Shown: piece after piece, positions 1 to 5,672 of the stretch
How the letters are laid out: every line of letters starts with the position of its first letter
Numbering within the stretch: the first letter of the stretch is position 1
Assembly: GCA_005879255.1 (NCBI GenBank)
Contig: VBKY01000328.1
Coordinates: forward strand, 15,881-21,552
Direction of reading: 5' to 3'
From: Deltaproteobacteria bacterium
GTDB lineage: Bacteria; Desulfobacterota_B; Binatia; UBA9968
DNA: 5,672 nt
Notes under the pieces: generated by a model
What the model was told of the DNA's origin: nothing
Seen by the model: only the letters and a program-made list of their open reading frames with translations
Databases searched by the model: none
Translations under genes and position numbers: made by a program

Positions 1-298
1 CGATCTCGGCGAGCAGTTGGCCCTTGGTCACGGTATCGCCGATGTCAACGTGGATCGCCTTTAATTGGCCGGAGACCTGGGTGCCGACGTCGACGTATTG
101 CTTCGCTTCGAGCTTGCCTTGGGACGTAACGACTTCTTCGATGTTAGCGCGGGCGACGGCGATCGGCTGAACGGTTCCCTGCTCTTGTTTTTGTGCAGCG
201 GAACTGTACCAGTACCATCCGCCCGCCGCGATCAAAACAACGGCGAGAATGCTGATCGATTTTTTTAGGTTTTTTGGTACGAATGTTTTCCAATTCAT
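1..298 (-). CDS. macA: MacA-type periplasmic efflux adaptor (HlyD/RND membrane fusion family), N-terminal 99 residues
   Basis: Membrane fusion protein that links an inner-membrane transporter to an outer-membrane channel. Seen: a short basic N-terminus, a hydrophobic segment at about residues 14-32 (signal anchor), then VDVGTQVSGQLK (69-80) and IGDTVTKGQLLAEI (86-99). This is the first half of the biotinyl/lipoyl-like domain and closely resembles the MacA signature, so a MacB-type ABC transporter is the expected partner further left (inference). The gene runs off the window at base 1, so hairpin, beta-barrel and later domains are not visible. The ATG at 298 is preferred because AGAGGGG lies 9 nt upstream. 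An in-frame ATG at 331 lacks a ribosome binding site and falls inside the predicted promoter -10. The gene follows the sigma/anti-sigma/sensor operon on the same strand after 140 nt and has its own copy of the shared promoter-like element. The adaptor family is certain; the MacA subtype is likely. Confidence 0.88.
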   Translation of the reverse strand, partial: MNWKTFVPKNLKKSISILAVVLIAAGGWYWYSSAAQKQEQGTVQPIAVARANIEEVVTSQGKLEAKQYVDVGTQVSGQLKAIHVDIGDTVTKGQLLAEI

Positions 299-330: not shown

Positions 331-361
331 TTAATACGAGCGAGCCGTCGCCAGTCTTCGC
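331..361 (-). promoter_or_regulatory. Candidate ECF-type promoter of the efflux adaptor gene (shared 31-bp element, copy 1)
   Basis: Read leftward, the element has the blocks GCGAAGACT, CG, CTCG and TCGTAT followed by N-AA. It matches the element at 1843-1873 at 23 of 31 positions without gaps. The outer blocks sit where -35 and -10 elements of an ECF sigma promoter would sit, at 353-361 and 334-339, and TCGTAT carries the CGT core common in ECF -10 boxes. A run of eight T (minus strand, 372-379) lies about 10 bp upstream of the -35, like an UP element. Predicted transcription starts near 327-329, leaving a leader of about 30 nt before the ATG at 298. The repeat is directly visible; the promoter role is inferred. 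Confidence 0.6.
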
Positions 362-438
362 TTTCGGTGCGAAAAAAAAGTGATGGAATTTCAGGCACTT
401 AGACTGCAACGGGTGATCTGGTTAACGATTTGCTGATT

Positions 439-873
439 TTAGCTGGATGGCGGCGGGCGGCGCAGCAAATCGGCGAGCATACGGCGCTCTTCGGGTGAGA
501 ATTCTTTGGCAGTTTGCTTGAAGTCTTGCCCCATTCGCTTGAACATTTCACCACGCAGCTCTTCGATTTTGCTTACCTGGCGATCATATGCGGTTTCGTC
601 AAACCGCTCGGCCGCCAATAATCGAAGCGTCTCGGCGCGCGCCTCATCGATCTGCTGGCGCAGCGGATCGTTGACGGCGCGAATCTGCGCAAACTTTTCG
701 CGAAAGCGTGATTGCGCAGGTTCCGGAACTTTCTTAAGCGCTTCTTCCATCCTTTGCGTGCGCGTCGACGGTGTAGTTTCCAGGCCGCGCGGCACCTGGC
801 CTAAAATCACGCCGAGCAACAGTAGGTTCAGCACAAGCGACCCAAGAAACACTAATTTGAGGGCTTTTGTCAT
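439..873 (-). CDS. Membrane-anchored periplasmic sensor protein of the CnrX/Spy-like (periplasmic heavy-metal sensor) type
   Basis: Of 144 residues, about 7-25 form a hydrophobic anchor (LVFLGSLVLNLLLLGVILG). The rest is a charged, helix-forming periplasmic part (about 37-137) with FSPEERRMLADLL at 125-137, the kind of closing helix seen in Spy/CpxP and heavy-metal-resistance proteins. CnrX-type proteins (about 150 residues) hold their sigma/anti-sigma pair inactive until a ligand binds. Here the gene follows an ECF sigma factor and a probable anti-sigma factor, overlapping the latter by 4 nt (ATGA), so the same role is inferred. GAGG lies 7 nt before the ATG. Oddity: the whole protein has no histidine and no cysteine, only Met42, Met110, Met114 and Met132 as soft ligands beyond the start Met. 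A CnrX-like nickel/cobalt site is therefore unlikely, and it may sense another metal, a drug or envelope stress. The family is fairly sure; the ligand is unknown. Confidence 0.8.
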   Translation of the reverse strand: MTKALKLVFLGSLVLNLLLLGVILGQVPRGLETTPSTRTQRMEEALKKVPEPAQSRFREKFAQIRAVNDPLRQQIDEARAETLRLLAAERFDETAYDRQVSKIEELRGEMFKRMGQDFKQTAKEFSPEERRMLADLLRRPPPSS

Positions 874-1184
874 AACAACGCCTCATCGGCTGATAAGAAA
901 CTTTGCACGGACACGCCGCTGTCATCGGCGGCCGGACCGGTATCTTGGGGCGCACTGAATCCGATGACTATGCCGAAAACCAAAGCGCTGGCGAGCACGT
1001 AAGCCGGTTTAGGCAGATGAAATTCGCCGAACATCTCGCGCACCGACTGCCAGAGCGGCATGGTTTTTGTTTGCGGCAATTGTCGCGCCTTAAAAATAAT
1101 CCGCTGGGCCAAGTCGGCACTGGCCGGTTCATGGCGTCGAGAACGAAGCATTCGGTCGAGTTTTTCGTCGCGATTGTCGCTCAT
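870..1184 (-). CDS. Small single-pass membrane protein, probable anti-sigma factor
   Basis: A 104-residue protein with no family recognised by sequence. Seen: a charged cytoplasmic N-terminus (1-57) beginning MSDNRDEKLDRML with a helical stretch ADLAQRIIFKARQL (23-36), one transmembrane segment (about 61-78, AYVLASALVFGIVIGFSA), and a 26-residue acidic periplasmic tail. Small ECF anti-sigma factors such as CnrY have this topology and size: a short N-terminal helix binds the sigma factor and a single membrane span carries the signal. The gene starts 7 nt after the sigma factor stop and overlaps the sensor gene by 4 nt, so an anti-sigma role is the natural reading. The ATG at 1184 is chosen over a GTG two codons upstream (1190), because that GTG lies inside the ribosome binding site GAGGTGG. 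No zinc-binding HxxxCxxC (ZAS) motif is present. Confidence 0.72.
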   Translation of the reverse strand: MSDNRDEKLDRMLRSRRHEPASADLAQRIIFKARQLPQTKTMPLWQSVREMFGEFHLPKPAYVLASALVFGIVIGFSAPQDTGPAADDSGVSVQSFLSADEALL

Positions 1185-1186
1185 AA

Positions 1187-1193
1187 CCACCTC
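1187..1193 (-). promoter_or_regulatory. Ribosome binding site deciding the anti-sigma start
   Basis: The minus-strand sequence GAGGTGG overlaps the TGA stop of the sigma factor gene and ends 2 nt before the ATG at 1184; its GAGG core ends 5 nt before it. It covers the competing GTG at 1190, so translation from the ATG, coupled to the end of the sigma gene, is more likely. Confidence 0.5.
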
Positions 1194-1746
1194 ACAAATA
1201 CGCTTTCATGCGCTCTTTCAAAGTCGTCTTGGCGCGCATGACCAGCGATTGCAATGCTTTCAATTTCACGCCCATCACCGCGGCCGCCTCCTGATTGCTC
1301 AGACCCTCGTCGAAACAAAGATTCAAGGCCATCCGTTGGCGCTCGGGTAGGGCGGCGATCTCTCTTTCCAAGGCTTTTTGCTCTTGAATTTTCACCATCG
1401 TTTCATCCACCGGCTCTCGATCATCGATCAACGGCATCTCTTCATCGAGCGCCACCGGCCCTTTCCGTTTGCGCAAATCGAGACATAAATTCACCACGAC
1501 GCGATAAAACCACGTGGTAAATTTGCTGTTGCGCTCGGGCTGCCAGAGCGCCGGATTTTCCCATAATTTGAGAAAAGCGTCTTGAACCACGTCTTCAGCC
1601 GCTGCTTTACTCTGGAGGTAGCGATAAGCCAGCCGATAAAAGCGCTCGGTATGGCGCTCAACCAGCGTCGCAAACGCTTGGCCGTTGCCGTCCTGAATGA
1701 GCACGAGCAATTCGTGATCGTCTTTCTCCGGCCAAGCTGTCGCCAT
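1192..1746 (-). CDS. RNA polymerase ECF sigma factor (sigma-70 family, RpoE-like)
   Basis: Directs RNA polymerase to a small set of stress-response promoters. Its 184 residues fit the two-domain ECF layout. Region 2 (about 24-95) carries AEDVVQDAFLKLW (50-62) and FTTWFYRVVVNLCLDLRKRK (76-95), the core-binding and -10 recognition part. A variable acidic linker spans about 96-124. Region 4 (125-180) has LPERQRMALNLCFDEGLS (133-150) and the helix-turn-helix NQEAAAVMGVKLKALQSL (151-168), which reads the -35. No extra C-terminal domain is present. The start is fixed: an in-frame TAA lies four codons upstream (1756-1758) and ATG 1746 is the only start after it, although no clear ribosome binding site is seen. 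It is the first gene of an operon with the anti-sigma and sensor genes. The shared 31-bp element about 100 bp upstream suggests autoregulation. Confidence 0.93.
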   Translation of the reverse strand: MATAWPEKDDHELLVLIQDGNGQAFATLVERHTERFYRLAYRYLQSKAAAEDVVQDAFLKLWENPALWQPERNSKFTTWFYRVVVNLCLDLRKRKGPVALDEEMPLIDDREPVDETMVKIQEQKALEREIAALPERQRMALNLCFDEGLSNQEAAAVMGVKLKALQSLVMRAKTTLKERMKAYL

Positions 1747-1810
1747 AGTGTTGGATTATCAGTTTTGCGGCTGCGACGTATTCGTTCGATCATACAACCC
1801 ACGGGCTCCG

Positions 1811-1839
1811 AAAATAAGGCCGGAGACACTCCTGTTCAA
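1811..1839 (-). promoter_or_regulatory. Weak candidate housekeeping promoter inside the sigma gene leader
   Basis: Read leftward, TTGAAC (1834-1839), a 17-bp spacer and TATTTT (1811-1816) match the sigma-70 -35 and -10 at four of six positions each. The spacer holds a short inverted repeat (GGAG-ACA-CTCC, 1822-1832). It could give basal expression of the sigma operon downstream of the ECF-type element, but matches this weak also occur by chance. Confidence 0.25.
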
Positions 1840-1842
1840 TGG

Positions 1843-1873
1843 TTGATACGACCGAGGCGGGTAAAGTCTTCGC
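1843..1873 (-). promoter_or_regulatory. Candidate autoregulated ECF-type promoter of the sigma operon (shared 31-bp element, copy 2)
   Basis: The minus-strand blocks GCGAAGACT (1865-1873), CG, CTCG and TCGTAT (1846-1851) align without gaps with the element at 331-361. The five bases after the first block are all different, as expected for a promoter spacer. An AT-rich tract (1882-1897) lies 8 bp upstream of the -35 block and matches the position of the T-run at copy 1. Predicted transcription starts near 1838, giving a leader of about 90 nt before the sigma ATG at 1746. ECF sigma factors commonly transcribe their own operon; that this one does is inferred. Confidence 0.6.
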
Positions 1874-2543: not shown

Positions 2544-4844
2544 ATGGCAAAGCCATCTTCAATCATCGGTGCTCCGGTCGCAAGAGTGGAGAGCGCCGAA
2601 AAAGCCAGTGGCCAGGCTATTTATGGCGCCGATGTGCACTTTTCCGACACGCTGTGGGGCAAAATTCTTAGGAGCCCGCACCCGCACGCGCGCATCTTGC
2701 GCATCGATACTTCCAAGGCTCGGCAGGTGCCAGGCGTCAAAGCGATCGTCACGGGCCAAGACGAGCCGAATCATTTCCAGGGCAAGAGCATCCGCGACAT
2801 CCCGGTGCTGTGTTGGGACAAGGTGCGCTACATCGGGGACCGAGTCGCAGCGGTGGCGGCGGAGACACGTGAGGCGGCTGAAGAGGCAATCGATCTCATC
2901 GAAGTCGAATACCGGGAGCTGCCGGCGGTCTTCGATGTTTTGGAGGCGATGAAGCCCGGCGCGCCGATCGTGCACGACGACGCTTCGGCCTATGACGGCG
3001 CACCGCAGGATATCTTGGTCAAAGACATTCCCAACGTACTTAATAAGCTCACGTGGGGTAAGGGAGACATCGAAAAGGGCTTCGGCGAGGCCGATCTGGT
3101 GTTGGAGCACACGTTCCGCATCCCGATCCATCATCAAGGCTATCTCGAGCCGCAATCTTTTCTGGTAAAGGTCGACGAGAACGGCCAGGTCGATGCCTGG
3201 TCGTCGACCAAGGGTCCATTCGGAACACGAGCGCAATTTGCCAAGGCCGTCGGCATTCCCGCCAGCCAGATTCGCATTCACGCAGTTCACGTCGGCGCGG
3301 ACTTCGGCGGCAAAAGCGGCGCGGGCGATCTGCCGATCTGCTACTTTCTCGCCAAGCAAGCAAAGCGGCCGGTGAAGATCGTCTTGACGCACACCGAAGA
3401 GCTAACGGTGATGAACCCGGATCACTACACCATCGTCAAGGTGAAGACCGGCGTGAAACGCGACGGGCGAATGACCGCGCGCTATTTGAAGGCGATCCAC
3501 GGCACCGGCGCATACGCGGGCATGAAGCCGGGGCGGGCCAGCATCGGCGGCGCAGGCACGGCCGGGCCGTACAAGATCGACAACACTTATATGGAAGCGC
3601 TGCAGGTTTACACGAATACGGTGCCGTGCGGTTTCTGGCGTGCGCCCGGGGCCATTCAAGCCGTTTTCGCCTCGGAATCGCATATGGATCTCATCGCCCG
3701 CGAGCTCAAAATGGACCCGGCGAAGTTTCGCATGATCAATCTCGTCGGCGAGGGTGAAGAGAATGCCCTCGGCAGATCGTGGAGCGGCGTCAAGGCCAAA
3801 GAAACTCTGCAGGCGGCGCTCGACGCCGCCGGCTGGAAGACGAAAAAGCGCAAGCCAAACTTCGGCCGCGGCGTTGCGATGTACGAGCGCGGCACCGGAG
3901 CGGGAAAGGCTTGGGTAGTTTTGACCGCGGAAGCAGATGGATCGATTACGGTGTTTACCGTCGCCGGCGATCAAGGCACCGGCTTGCAGACCGTTCTATG
4001 CCAGACGGTGGCCAACGAAATGGAAGTGCCCTATGAACGCGTGGCCTGCCGTATCGGCAATACGTCCGATGTGCCTTACAGTGTCGACGTCGGCTTCGGC
4101 GGCAGCCGCTCGACCAACATCAACAGCGCCGCGGCAGTGCAGGCCTCCGGCGAATTGCGCGGCAAGCTCATTCCGCTGGCGGCGAAGCTGCTCGGCTGTG
4201 CAGATGATCAAGTGGCTTACAAATCCGGCAAATTTTCGCGCCGCGGCAATCGCAAGTCGGTTTCGCTGAGCGATGTCGTCAAGAGCAGCGGGGCGCCGGT
4301 GAAGGTCAGTATCGAGCTCGAAGTACCGCGCAAAGGGTCGTCCACTTCCTTTGTCGCGCAAGTGGCGGAGGTCGAAGTCGACCGGGAGACGGGAAGAGTC
4401 AAACTGCACAAATTTGTCACGGCGCACGATGTCGGCACGATTATCAATCCACTCGGCCATCAGGGGCAGATCGACGGCGAGGCGATTATGGCGATCGGCT
4501 CCGGCTTGATGGAAGAGTTGATCGATGACCAAGGCAAGATCACGACGACGAATCTTGGCGAATATAAGATTCCCAACATTCTCGATATTCCGAAAATTAC
4601 GACGGTGTTGGTCAAAGGCAAAAATGGTCCCGGTCCTTACGAGGCAAAGGGTATAGGCGAACACGCCAACGTCACTCCGCCTGCGGCGATCGCCAACGCC
4701 GTACACGATGCTTGCGGCGTGAGATTGTTCGACATTCCGGTGACGGCGGAGAAGGTTTACAGTGCCTTAAACGGCAAGGTCTTCCCCCTCCTTCATCCTC
4801 CCCCGCACGCGGGGGAGGAAAGAGGGGGGGGCAAGGAGGATTAA
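2544..4844 (+). CDS. Molybdopterin-binding large subunit, xanthine dehydrogenase/aldehyde oxidase family
   Basis: Hydroxylates or oxidises a small organic substrate at a molybdenum-cytosine-dinucleotide centre, passing electrons to partner 2Fe-2S and FAD subunits. Its 766 residues fit separate-subunit members. Domains: alpha/beta hammerhead (about 17-130, starting KASGQAIYGAD), first molybdopterin domain (about 140-400) with QGYLEPQ (198-204), GADFGGK (251-257) and FWRAPGAIQAVFASE (364-378), and second (about 410-740) with DQGTGLQT (476-483) and GGSRSTN (519-525). KGIGE (702-706) supplies the catalytic glutamate, Glu706. The CO dehydrogenase loop AYRCSFR is absent, so it is not a true CoxL. 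GGGAGA lies 7 nt before the ATG. No Tat signal is seen. Residues 747-766 (starting FPLLHPPPHAGEERGGG) come from a GC-rich palindromic repeat and look like a later read-through extension. The partner subunits are not in the window. The stop overlaps the next start by one base. The substrate cannot be told. Confidence 0.95.
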   Translation: MAKPSSIIGAPVARVESAEKASGQAIYGADVHFSDTLWGKILRSPHPHARILRIDTSKARQVPGVKAIVTGQDEPNHFQGKSIRDIPVLCWDKVRYIGDRVAAVAAETREAAEEAIDLIEVEYRELPAVFDVLEAMKPGAPIVHDDASAYDGAPQDILVKDIPNVLNKLTWGKGDIEKGFGEADLVLEHTFRIPIHHQGYLEPQSFLVKVDENGQVDAWSSTKGPFGTRAQFAKAVGIPASQIRIHAVHVGADFGGKSGAGDLPICYFLAKQAKRPVKIVLTHTEELTVMNPDHYTIVKVKTGVKRDGRMTARYLKAIHGTGAYAGMKPGRASIGGAGTAGPYKIDNTYMEALQVYTNTVPCGFWRAPGAIQAVFASESHMDLIARELKMDPAKFRMINLVGEGEENALGRSWSGVKAKETLQAALDAAGWKTKKRKPNFGRGVAMYERGTGAGKAWVVLTAEADGSITVFTVAGDQGTGLQTVLCQTVANEMEVPYERVACRIGNTSDVPYSVDVGFGGSRSTNINSAAAVQASGELRGKLIPLAAKLLGCADDQVAYKSGKFSRRGNRKSVSLSDVVKSSGAPVKVSIELEVPRKGSSTSFVAQVAEVEVDRETGRVKLHKFVTAHDVGTIINPLGHQGQIDGEAIMAIGSGLMEELIDDQGKITTTNLGEYKIPNILDIPKITTVLVKGKNGPGPYEAKGIGEHANVTPPAAIANAVHDACGVRLFDIPVTAEKVYSALNGKVFPLLHPPPHAGEERGGGKED
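4784..4831. repeat. REP-like GC-rich compound palindrome at the end of the molybdenum enzyme gene
   Basis: The inner stem is a perfect 10-bp inverted repeat: CCTCCCCCGC (4797-4806) and GCGGGGGAGG (4809-4818) around a 2-nt loop. An outer pair, CCCCCTC (4784-4790) and GAGGGGG (4822-4828), flanks it across an asymmetric internal loop of 6 and 3 nt. The base composition is unlike the rest of the gene, and it encodes the low-complexity C-terminal tail from residue 747 on. Such compound palindromes are typical of dispersed REP-like elements. Copy number cannot be judged from one window. There is no T-run after it, so it is not a classic rho-independent terminator. Confidence 0.7.
4833..4839 (+). 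promoter_or_regulatory. Strong ribosome binding site of the substrate-binding protein gene, abutting the hairpin
   Basis: AAGGAGG is a full Shine-Dalgarno match placed 4 nt before ATG 4844. It begins one base after the G-run of the palindrome and lies inside the last codons of the upstream gene, so ribosomes finishing that gene would open the hairpin and expose the site. Confidence 0.7.
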
Positions 4845-5672
4845 TGAACGGCGGAATTCACGGCAACCGATGTTTGATCTGTTCGATGCTGTTATTTTTT
4901 ATCGCCATCTTGTCAGGTGACGCCCAAGGTCAGGAAAAAATCAAAATCGCTTACAGCTCGACGGATACGCTGAATCAGATCTGGACCATCGCGCAGGATG
5001 CGGGCTTTTATAAGAAGAATGGCTTAGACGTCGATTTGGTTTACATCGGCAGCACGACTGTCGGTATCGCGGCGATCATGGCACAGGATATCCAGGTCGG
5101 AAATGCCGCGGGAAGCGGCGTCGCCAATGCCAATGTGCGCGGGGCGGACACCGTGAGCGTCGCCTGCACGATCAATGTTTTGGCTTATGAGCTTGTCGTT
5201 CGCGACAGCATCAAGAATGCCGAAGATCTGAAAGGAAAATCGATCGGCATCAGCCGTTTCGGTAGCGTATCCGACGTGGCTGCCCGGGAATTACTCAAAG
5301 GACTGGGTCTTCGCCCCATGGAAGATGTGAAGATCCTGCAAGTGGGCGGCGCATCGGAGCGCGCCGCCGGATTTAGCCGGGGAGTCATCGCGGGCTTTCC
5401 TTCGCCGCCGGGCAACGTGCATTTGATTCCCGGCGGATTGCCACACCGTATCCTGGCAAATATGGCCGATTTGAAAAAGCCCTATCCGCTGCCGTTCATC
5501 TGCGCGGTGACGACTAAAAGTTACCTCGCCAAGAATCGCTCGGTCGTGAAAAGAGTGGTGATGGCGCTGATCGAAGCGTCGCACTTTTTCAAGACCAACA
5601 AGGACGCGACGCAGAAAATCGTCGCCAAATATTTAAGGGGAGCGAACAAGGCGTATCTCGATAGCTCCTATG
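4844..5672 (+). CDS. ABC transporter substrate-binding protein, NMT1/SsuA-like, 3' end cut by window
   Basis: Periplasmic binding protein expected to deliver a small organic solute to an ABC importer. An uninterrupted frame of 276 codons runs to the window edge. Seen: a signal peptide with hydrophobic core LICSMLLFFIAIL (11-23) and likely cleavage near AQG-Q (29/30), with no lipobox cysteine. The mature part begins IKIAYSS (33-39) and continues with AQDAGFYKKNGLDVDLV (50-66) and AEDLKGKSIGISRFGSVSD (126-144), the classic pattern of the nitrate/sulfonate/taurine and thiamine-precursor (NMT1) class. SPPGNVHL, near residue 190, is the usual domain-crossing loop. Family members are about 320-340 residues, so some 50 are missing. 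Its ATG shares one base with the stop of the molybdenum enzyme gene (TAATG), implying co-translation. Permease and ATPase genes would be expected downstream but are not visible. The ligand is unknown; the ligand may be the enzyme's substrate. Confidence 0.93.
   Translation, partial: MNGGIHGNRCLICSMLLFFIAILSGDAQGQEKIKIAYSSTDTLNQIWTIAQDAGFYKKNGLDVDLVYIGSTTVGIAAIMAQDIQVGNAAGSGVANANVRGADTVSVACTINVLAYELVVRDSIKNAEDLKGKSIGISRFGSVSDVAARELLKGLGLRPMEDVKILQVGGASERAAGFSRGVIAGFPSPPGNVHLIPGGLPHRILANMADLKKPYPLPFICAVTTKSYLAKNRSVVKRVVMALIEASHFFKTNKDATQKIVAKYLRGANKAYLDSSY

Follow-up and report, generated by a model that had tools for sequence, protein, structure and literature searches.

A probable ECF sigma factor promoter shared by a sensor cassette and a MacAB pump operon in Binatia

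The window, by which we mean the whole 5672-base stretch of DNA that was analysed, holds a three-gene sigma cassette and the start of an adaptor gene, all reading leftward (Table 1). The sigma protein has sigma regions 2 and 4 only, as ECF (group 4) factors do, and scores 100.6 bits with TIGR02937 (cut-off 42.9). The small protein encoded beside it is a candidate anti-sigma factor from its position and size. No Pfam or NCBIfam family matched it; its own family counts 985 homologs, for which the sole match among solved chains up to an E-value of 10 was importin-13 at 0.94, not a convincing relative. A profile of this protein matched 5 of 395 genomes sampled in the wider phylum, strongly only in G001. 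The third product of the cassette resembles Metal_resist and CpxP proteins, and CpxP is the best solved relative found with its profile (E = 0.0012).

Only the start of macA falls within the window. At the orthologous locus L001 of genome G001 the gene order is that of the window, continuing into macB and an outer-membrane channel gene. Among the relatives, macA and macB are present in 10 of 10 (two of the macB genes are partial) and the outer-membrane gene in 8 of 10, the contigs of the other two ending before it. In L119 the pump protein carries MacB_PCD, ABC_tran and FtsX domains, and OEP was also found. Genes for a MacA adaptor, a MacB ABC permease and an outer-membrane channel thus stand together in the relatives.

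Table 1. Features of the sigma cassette, the adaptor gene and their candidate control elements in the window
Feature	Position	Strand	Evidence
MacA-type adaptor gene, cut by window end	1..298	-	PRK11578 MacA 5e-18, fragment, 65.4 bits, cut-off 342
Candidate -10 block TCGTAT, putative promoter upstream of adaptor gene	334..339	-	Conserved in orthologous loci
Candidate -35 block CGAAGACT, putative promoter upstream of adaptor gene	353..360	-	Conserved in 10/10 orthologous loci
Weak terminator-like hairpin and T-run between sensor gene and putative adaptor promoter	372..400	-	-2.5 kcal/mol
Metal_resist/CpxP-like protein, 144 aa, N-terminal membrane segment (by eye), candidate periplasmic sensor	439..873	-	PF13801 6.7e-19
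106-aa protein, one apparent membrane segment (by eye), candidate anti-sigma factor	870..1190	-	Position and size
ECF sigma factor, 184 aa	1192..1746	-	Sigma70_r2 6.3e-21, Sigma70_r4_2 3.5e-13
TATGAT, candidate housekeeping (sigma-70-type) -10 of a second promoter	1789..1794	-	42 nt before sigma ATG
Candidate -10 block TCGTAT, putative promoter upstream of sigma operon	1846..1851	-	TCGTAT.A in 21/21 sites
Candidate -35 block CGAAGACT, putative promoter upstream of sigma operon	1865..1872	-	Conserved in 9/9 testable orthologous loci

An earlier note, made from the letters of this stretch, had pointed to a two-block element repeated ahead of the sigma operon and the adaptor gene. Bases 331-361 and 1843-1873 do align ungapped and in the same orientation (minus strand) with 23 of 31 identities, minus strand 1873-1843 reading GCGAAGACTTTACCCGCCTCGGTCGTATCAA and minus strand 361-331 reading GCGAAGACTGGCGACGGCTCGCTCGTATTAA, and they are the only pair in the window to reach that score. 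The mismatches lie mainly where the note had placed them, five of the eight being consecutive after the first block and the other three single. Common to both copies are a first block GCGAAGACT and a second block TCGTAT; the distance from element to ATG is 35 nt for the adaptor and 99 nt for sigma. A TTG-start ORF spans the adaptor-side element, and we rejected a reading of the element as adaptor coding sequence: the full-length relative in L001 aligns from the first residue of the adaptor, at base 298, and the element is therefore taken as non-coding. The AT-rich tract that the note saw 8-10 bp upstream of each copy is present before the adaptor gene, where it corresponds to the T-run of a hairpin resembling a terminator. 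It is not one feature shared by the two copies; the 30 bases upstream of the sigma-side element are unconserved, with a mean pairwise identity of 28%.

We searched for the sigma protein in the class of G001 (148 genomes). At 1e-30 there were matches in 17 genomes, ten of them close (E 2.9e-71 or better) and seven at only 34-41% identity. The ten close-ortholog genomes belong to one class; one (L001) is titled Candidatus Binatia, and its sigma is 74% identical to that of the window. As G001 and G147 are closely related (96% identity in macA), the ten amount to about nine lineages. A search pattern set beforehand from the window and L001, with one substitution allowed and a spacer of 14-16, was applied to the ten close and the seven distant sigma loci. 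The element lies before sigma in 9/9 testable close loci, G133 being excluded from this count because its contig starts inside sigma, and before macA in 10/10; the outcome named beforehand as fatal to the proposal, absence of the element before orthologous sigma genes, did not appear. With the pre-set pattern 17 sites were recovered in nine further genomes, and three of these, all sigma-side (L112, L115 and L117), needed one substitution. The few extra pattern matches elsewhere in these loci had one mismatch in all cases but one. Upstream of sigma in the seven distant loci there was no exact element match; a one-mismatch match in L120, starting 84 nt before the sigma match, has a different spacing and was not counted.

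The 21 sites, window included, refine the element to CGRAKACW-N13-TCGTATNA with fixed spacing. Five positions of the first block (C1, G2, A4, A6 and C7) do not vary among them, nor do TCGTAT and the A two bases later. Averaged over pairs of sites, identity is 0.89-0.95 for the blocks, against 0.38-0.54 for the spacer and 0.28-0.41 for the flanks. When the two sites of one genome are compared with each other (L112 dropped), the blocks are 0.90 and 0.94 identical against 0.26-0.38 for spacer and flanks. A matrix built from the 21 sites gave a maximum score of 12.6 in distant relatives (L002-L018 and L120-L126), compared with training scores of 30-44.

The genome-wide scan covered the ten orthologous genomes (carriers) and the 138 other genomes of the class. 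The exact pattern CGRAKACW-N13-TCGTAT matched 20 times in the carriers, 19 of these being sigma or macA sites, and 14 times in the 138 non-carriers; the reversed pattern matched nowhere in the 148 genomes. The pattern was derived from the sites that it then finds, so these figures measure specificity rather than discovery. Scanning for the blocks at the same spacing, as the earlier note had advised, thus puts 19/20 carrier matches at the two predicted places, and not at random inside coding sequence. ORFs of 200 aa or longer enclose 13/15 of the outside matches, 2/21 of the operon sites and 267/440 of random positions in the operon loci. A 100-aa ORF test failed as a control: 13/14 non-carrier matches and the extra carrier match fall inside such ORFs, and it does not discriminate because 10/21 operon sites and 363/440 random positions do so too. 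With two mismatches allowed the ten carriers gave 88 matches (19 known, 69 further) against 40 for the reversed pattern, and weaker additional targets in the carriers are possible on these counts. A looser pattern in G001 alone gave five matches, two of them known, and its control gave two. The element pair is real and conserved, and its exact form is nearly exclusive to the sigma/pump locus.

We hold it very probable that the repeated element is a promoter recognized by the ECF sigma factor of the adjacent cassette, and that it drives both this cassette and the MacA-MacB-channel operon. An autoregulated promoter before the own operon is usual, though not universal, for ECF sigma factors, and a conserved promoter-like sequence sits upstream of the sigma operon here; fixed spacing with a CGTAT core is likewise the usual ECF -35/-10 form. 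Conservation in orthologs and near-exclusive genome placement both support what the note had proposed, namely the sigma factor's own promoter motif linking signal cassette and pump. That the element is instead the operator of a separate transcription factor co-regulating both operons seems improbable. Two conserved blocks could be protein-binding sites, and an activator could also act from 35 nt before the adaptor ATG and 99 nt before the sigma ATG. Yet neither block repeats the other, in direct or inverted orientation, their spacing and core are of the ECF form, no other DNA-binding regulator is found among the six genes of the two units, and the exact element has only 14 matches in the 138 genomes outside the ten sigma carriers.

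A cascade, in which the element would be the promoter of a different ECF sigma of the same genomes, is marginally less probable still. The sigma query has five matches in G001, and cascades are reported elsewhere, for example SigT acting on sigV in Caulobacter (PMC13171946), but 19/20 exact carrier matches lie at the sigma cassette and its pump, and if an unrelated sigma were autoregulated, the element should stand ahead of that sigma's gene as well. We give almost no weight to chance similarity or to an inherited stretch kept without function. The loci are orthologous and some of the similarity is inherited, and 4/20 simulations of the whole window held at least one pair at 23/31, which makes the match alone less striking for a blind window. 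Against this, first-order Markov simulations of the two upstream regions (150 runs) gave no match better than 20/31, the blocks have stayed alike where spacer and flanks have diverged, and they are common to two non-orthologous places in each genome.

The hairpin and T-run end 7-13 nt before the macA -35 block in 10/11 loci, L117 having no such structure there. Its strength is -14.2 to -19.1 kcal/mol in eight relatives and -8.8 in L115; in the window, where it is weakest, a terminator scan called nothing at 372..400. By its predicted fold and place the hairpin separates the transcription units of the sigma cassette and the pump, and, with a clear terminator dividing these units in most relatives, a second promoter would be necessary. 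Within the sigma leader, TATGAT is found in 10/10 cases (the window and nine orthologous leaders), 39-54 nt before the ATG: 42 nt in seven leaders, 39 in one and 54 in two. It is likely a housekeeping -10 hexamer, although a consensus promoter scan of the window reported no promoter at 1789..1794. All the TATGAT-to-ATG distances are multiples of 3, while total leader length ranges from 96 to 178 nt. We considered a leader ORF starting at the ATG within TATGAT, whose frame stays open, and preferred the -10 hexamer because the peptides look unconserved and no ribosome site is seen (both by eye); the hexamer reading does not account for the multiples-of-3 spacing.

We infer the use of the sites by the adjacent sigma, the roles of anti-sigma and sensor, the signal and the second promoter. 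In the circuit that we propose, the -35 element CGAAGACT would be recognized by sigma region 4 and the -10 element TCGTATnA by region 2. In unstressed cells the candidate anti-sigma, the small membrane protein encoded beside sigma, would hold the sigma factor, the CpxP-like protein acting as periplasmic sensor; an envelope signal would then free the sigma factor. Freed sigma would transcribe the three genes of its cassette from the distal copy of the promoter, giving positive feedback together with fresh anti-sigma, and the separate macA-macB-outer-membrane-channel operon from the second copy of the element. Basal sigma would be supplied by the putative housekeeping promoter (TATGAT).

CnrX, the sensor of the cnrYXH-cnrCBAT system of Cupriavidus metallidurans (sigma CnrH, anti-sigma CnrY), has metal-binding His residues, unlike the sensor here, in which no His is conserved among 11 sequences. 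The 26 solved-structure matches of the latter include CpxP and Spy but not CnrX, and envelope stress seems the more likely signal than a metal ion. The two systems are alike in encoding sigma, a small membrane anti-sigma and a small periplasmic sensor together (the last two are candidates here), and in their promoter layout, which here is predicted from sequence. Published sections on Cupriavidus describe as CnrH-dependent cnrYp, ahead of the regulator genes, and cnrCp, ahead of the pump genes, with basal expression coming from an RpoD-dependent promoter (PMC9045368); the counterparts here are sequence elements only. The gene order is Y-X-H in cnr and sigma, small protein, sensor here, and the cnr pump is the RND-type CnrCBA whereas that here is the ABC-type MacA/MacB (from the L119 domains). 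Among PDB chains, SigE and SigW outscore CnrH as matches to our sigma. The part of CnrY would fall to the small protein with its single membrane segment (by eye), matched among solved chains only by importin-13 (0.94). We tested two marks of a cnr system, the conserved His and the RND pump, found both absent and therefore do not file the system as cnr.

Another likeness is to CaBP-SigV of Caulobacter vibrioides, in which an ECF sigma activates its own gene and that of a neighbouring periplasmic EF-hand protein (PMC13171946). The predicted sigV promoter, with -35 GGAAGCTTCG and -10 GCTTCA, is unlike the element here, and the part of that account consulted leaves the anti-sigma unsettled (PMC13171946). 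SigAb-AabA-AabB of Acinetobacter is a small autoregulated ECF operon with a 107-aa anti-sigma modelled like CnrY and very few direct targets. The sections consulted name sigAb, relA and a small RNA as these targets and describe what happens to RND pumps as an indirect effect (PMC12153292). Most ECFs autoregulate, according to the portion consulted of a survey in which 29 promoter motifs were found (Rhodius 2013, PMC3817407). Among the literature matches listed, no title concerned this promoter or an ECF-MacAB circuit in Binatia; in the available parts of two papers that combine ECF and MacAB terms, MacAB is mentioned only in the introduction or the references (PMC10433810 and PMC11832516).

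In the order of G003 (Micavibrio), where 53/142 genomes have a sigma relative at 1e-40, related cassettes have a sister form of the element, CGAAGGGTT...CGTAT, ahead of them. The cassette at L003, whose site was spotted by eye and missed by the 21-site matrix, encodes an EF-hand protein, sigma, a 103-aa protein and a Metal_resist protein; its EF-hand gene before sigma recalls CaBP-SigV. The ORFs of L004 are placed much as in L003, and L002 has no sensor-like ORF after the small protein. In the 30 loci of the order that were compared, CGAA-N18-CGTA occurs upstream of sigma in 16 and on the other strand in 1, against 0.55 expected from simulation; the remaining 14 are without the exact core. The 16 loci have the -10 core and the spacing in common with the Binatia element, and an altered -35. 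In 9 of these 16 loci the motif starts 44-85 nt before the called EF-hand ORF. Of the other seven, the called start is within the motif in two, the motif is inside the longest called ORF in three, no EF-hand ORF was called in one, and in one the motif is far upstream.

Across the 142 genomes, CGAAGGRTT-N13-CGTAT has 57 matches against 4 for the reversed pattern. By comparison of coordinates, 19/57 lie upstream of a sigma relative at a distance of no more than about 1.1 kb. We fetched 20 of the 38 others (L251-L270) for context: 5 lie inside a called same-strand ORF, 2 more resemble those, and 13 precede an ORF. Ten of these 13 downstream first genes were scanned, and they comprise three of the 17-kDa surface-antigen family, one OmpA-type, one HlyD_D23 adaptor, one cytochrome b561, one YHYH protein and three without family. 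This sample, which has no control gene set beside it, hints that the sister promoter may govern a wider envelope regulon in the Micavibrio order. In sigma region 4, KALQSL is found in 10/10 Binatia rows and KA(L/V/I)ESL in 24/24 rows of the Micavibrio order (6 of the 30 loci gave no row). The Q versus E difference is a candidate basis of the -35 change, through a residue-DNA contact that we infer.

The sister motif suggests that the Binatia element is one variant of a wider promoter type. We lean, with moderate confidence, towards the following fuller account. An ECF promoter specificity uncatalogued so far, CGAAGACT-N13-TCGTATnA, would define a two-promoter regulon of sensor cassette and MacAB pump in Binatia. 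It would be part of a wider type in which, from one phylum to another, the -35 shifts from AC to GG along with sigma region 4, -10 core and spacing remaining fixed, and in which a CpxP-like sensor without metal ligands replaces the metal sensor of cnr. A little-studied bacterial class would thereby gain a stress-response circuit that lends itself to testing and whose promoter code is defined, and one in which an ECF cassette is linked to a MacAB pump. The sister sigma/-35 specificities, CGAAGACT and CGAAGGGT, would form a natural pair for studying how ECF region 4 reads DNA, and so specific an ECF promoter could also be useful as an orthogonal part.

Elsewhere in the window, the plus strand encodes a molybdopterin-binding oxidoreductase subunit at 2544-4844, whose best NCBIfam model (4-hydroxybenzoyl-CoA reductase alpha) scores below cut-off, and directly after it, at 4844-5671, an SsuA/NMT1-type substrate-binding protein; these two genes have no evident tie to the sigma cassette. 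On the minus strand at 1895-2482, a 195-aa ORF with a weak DUF7255 match only reads toward the sigma operon.
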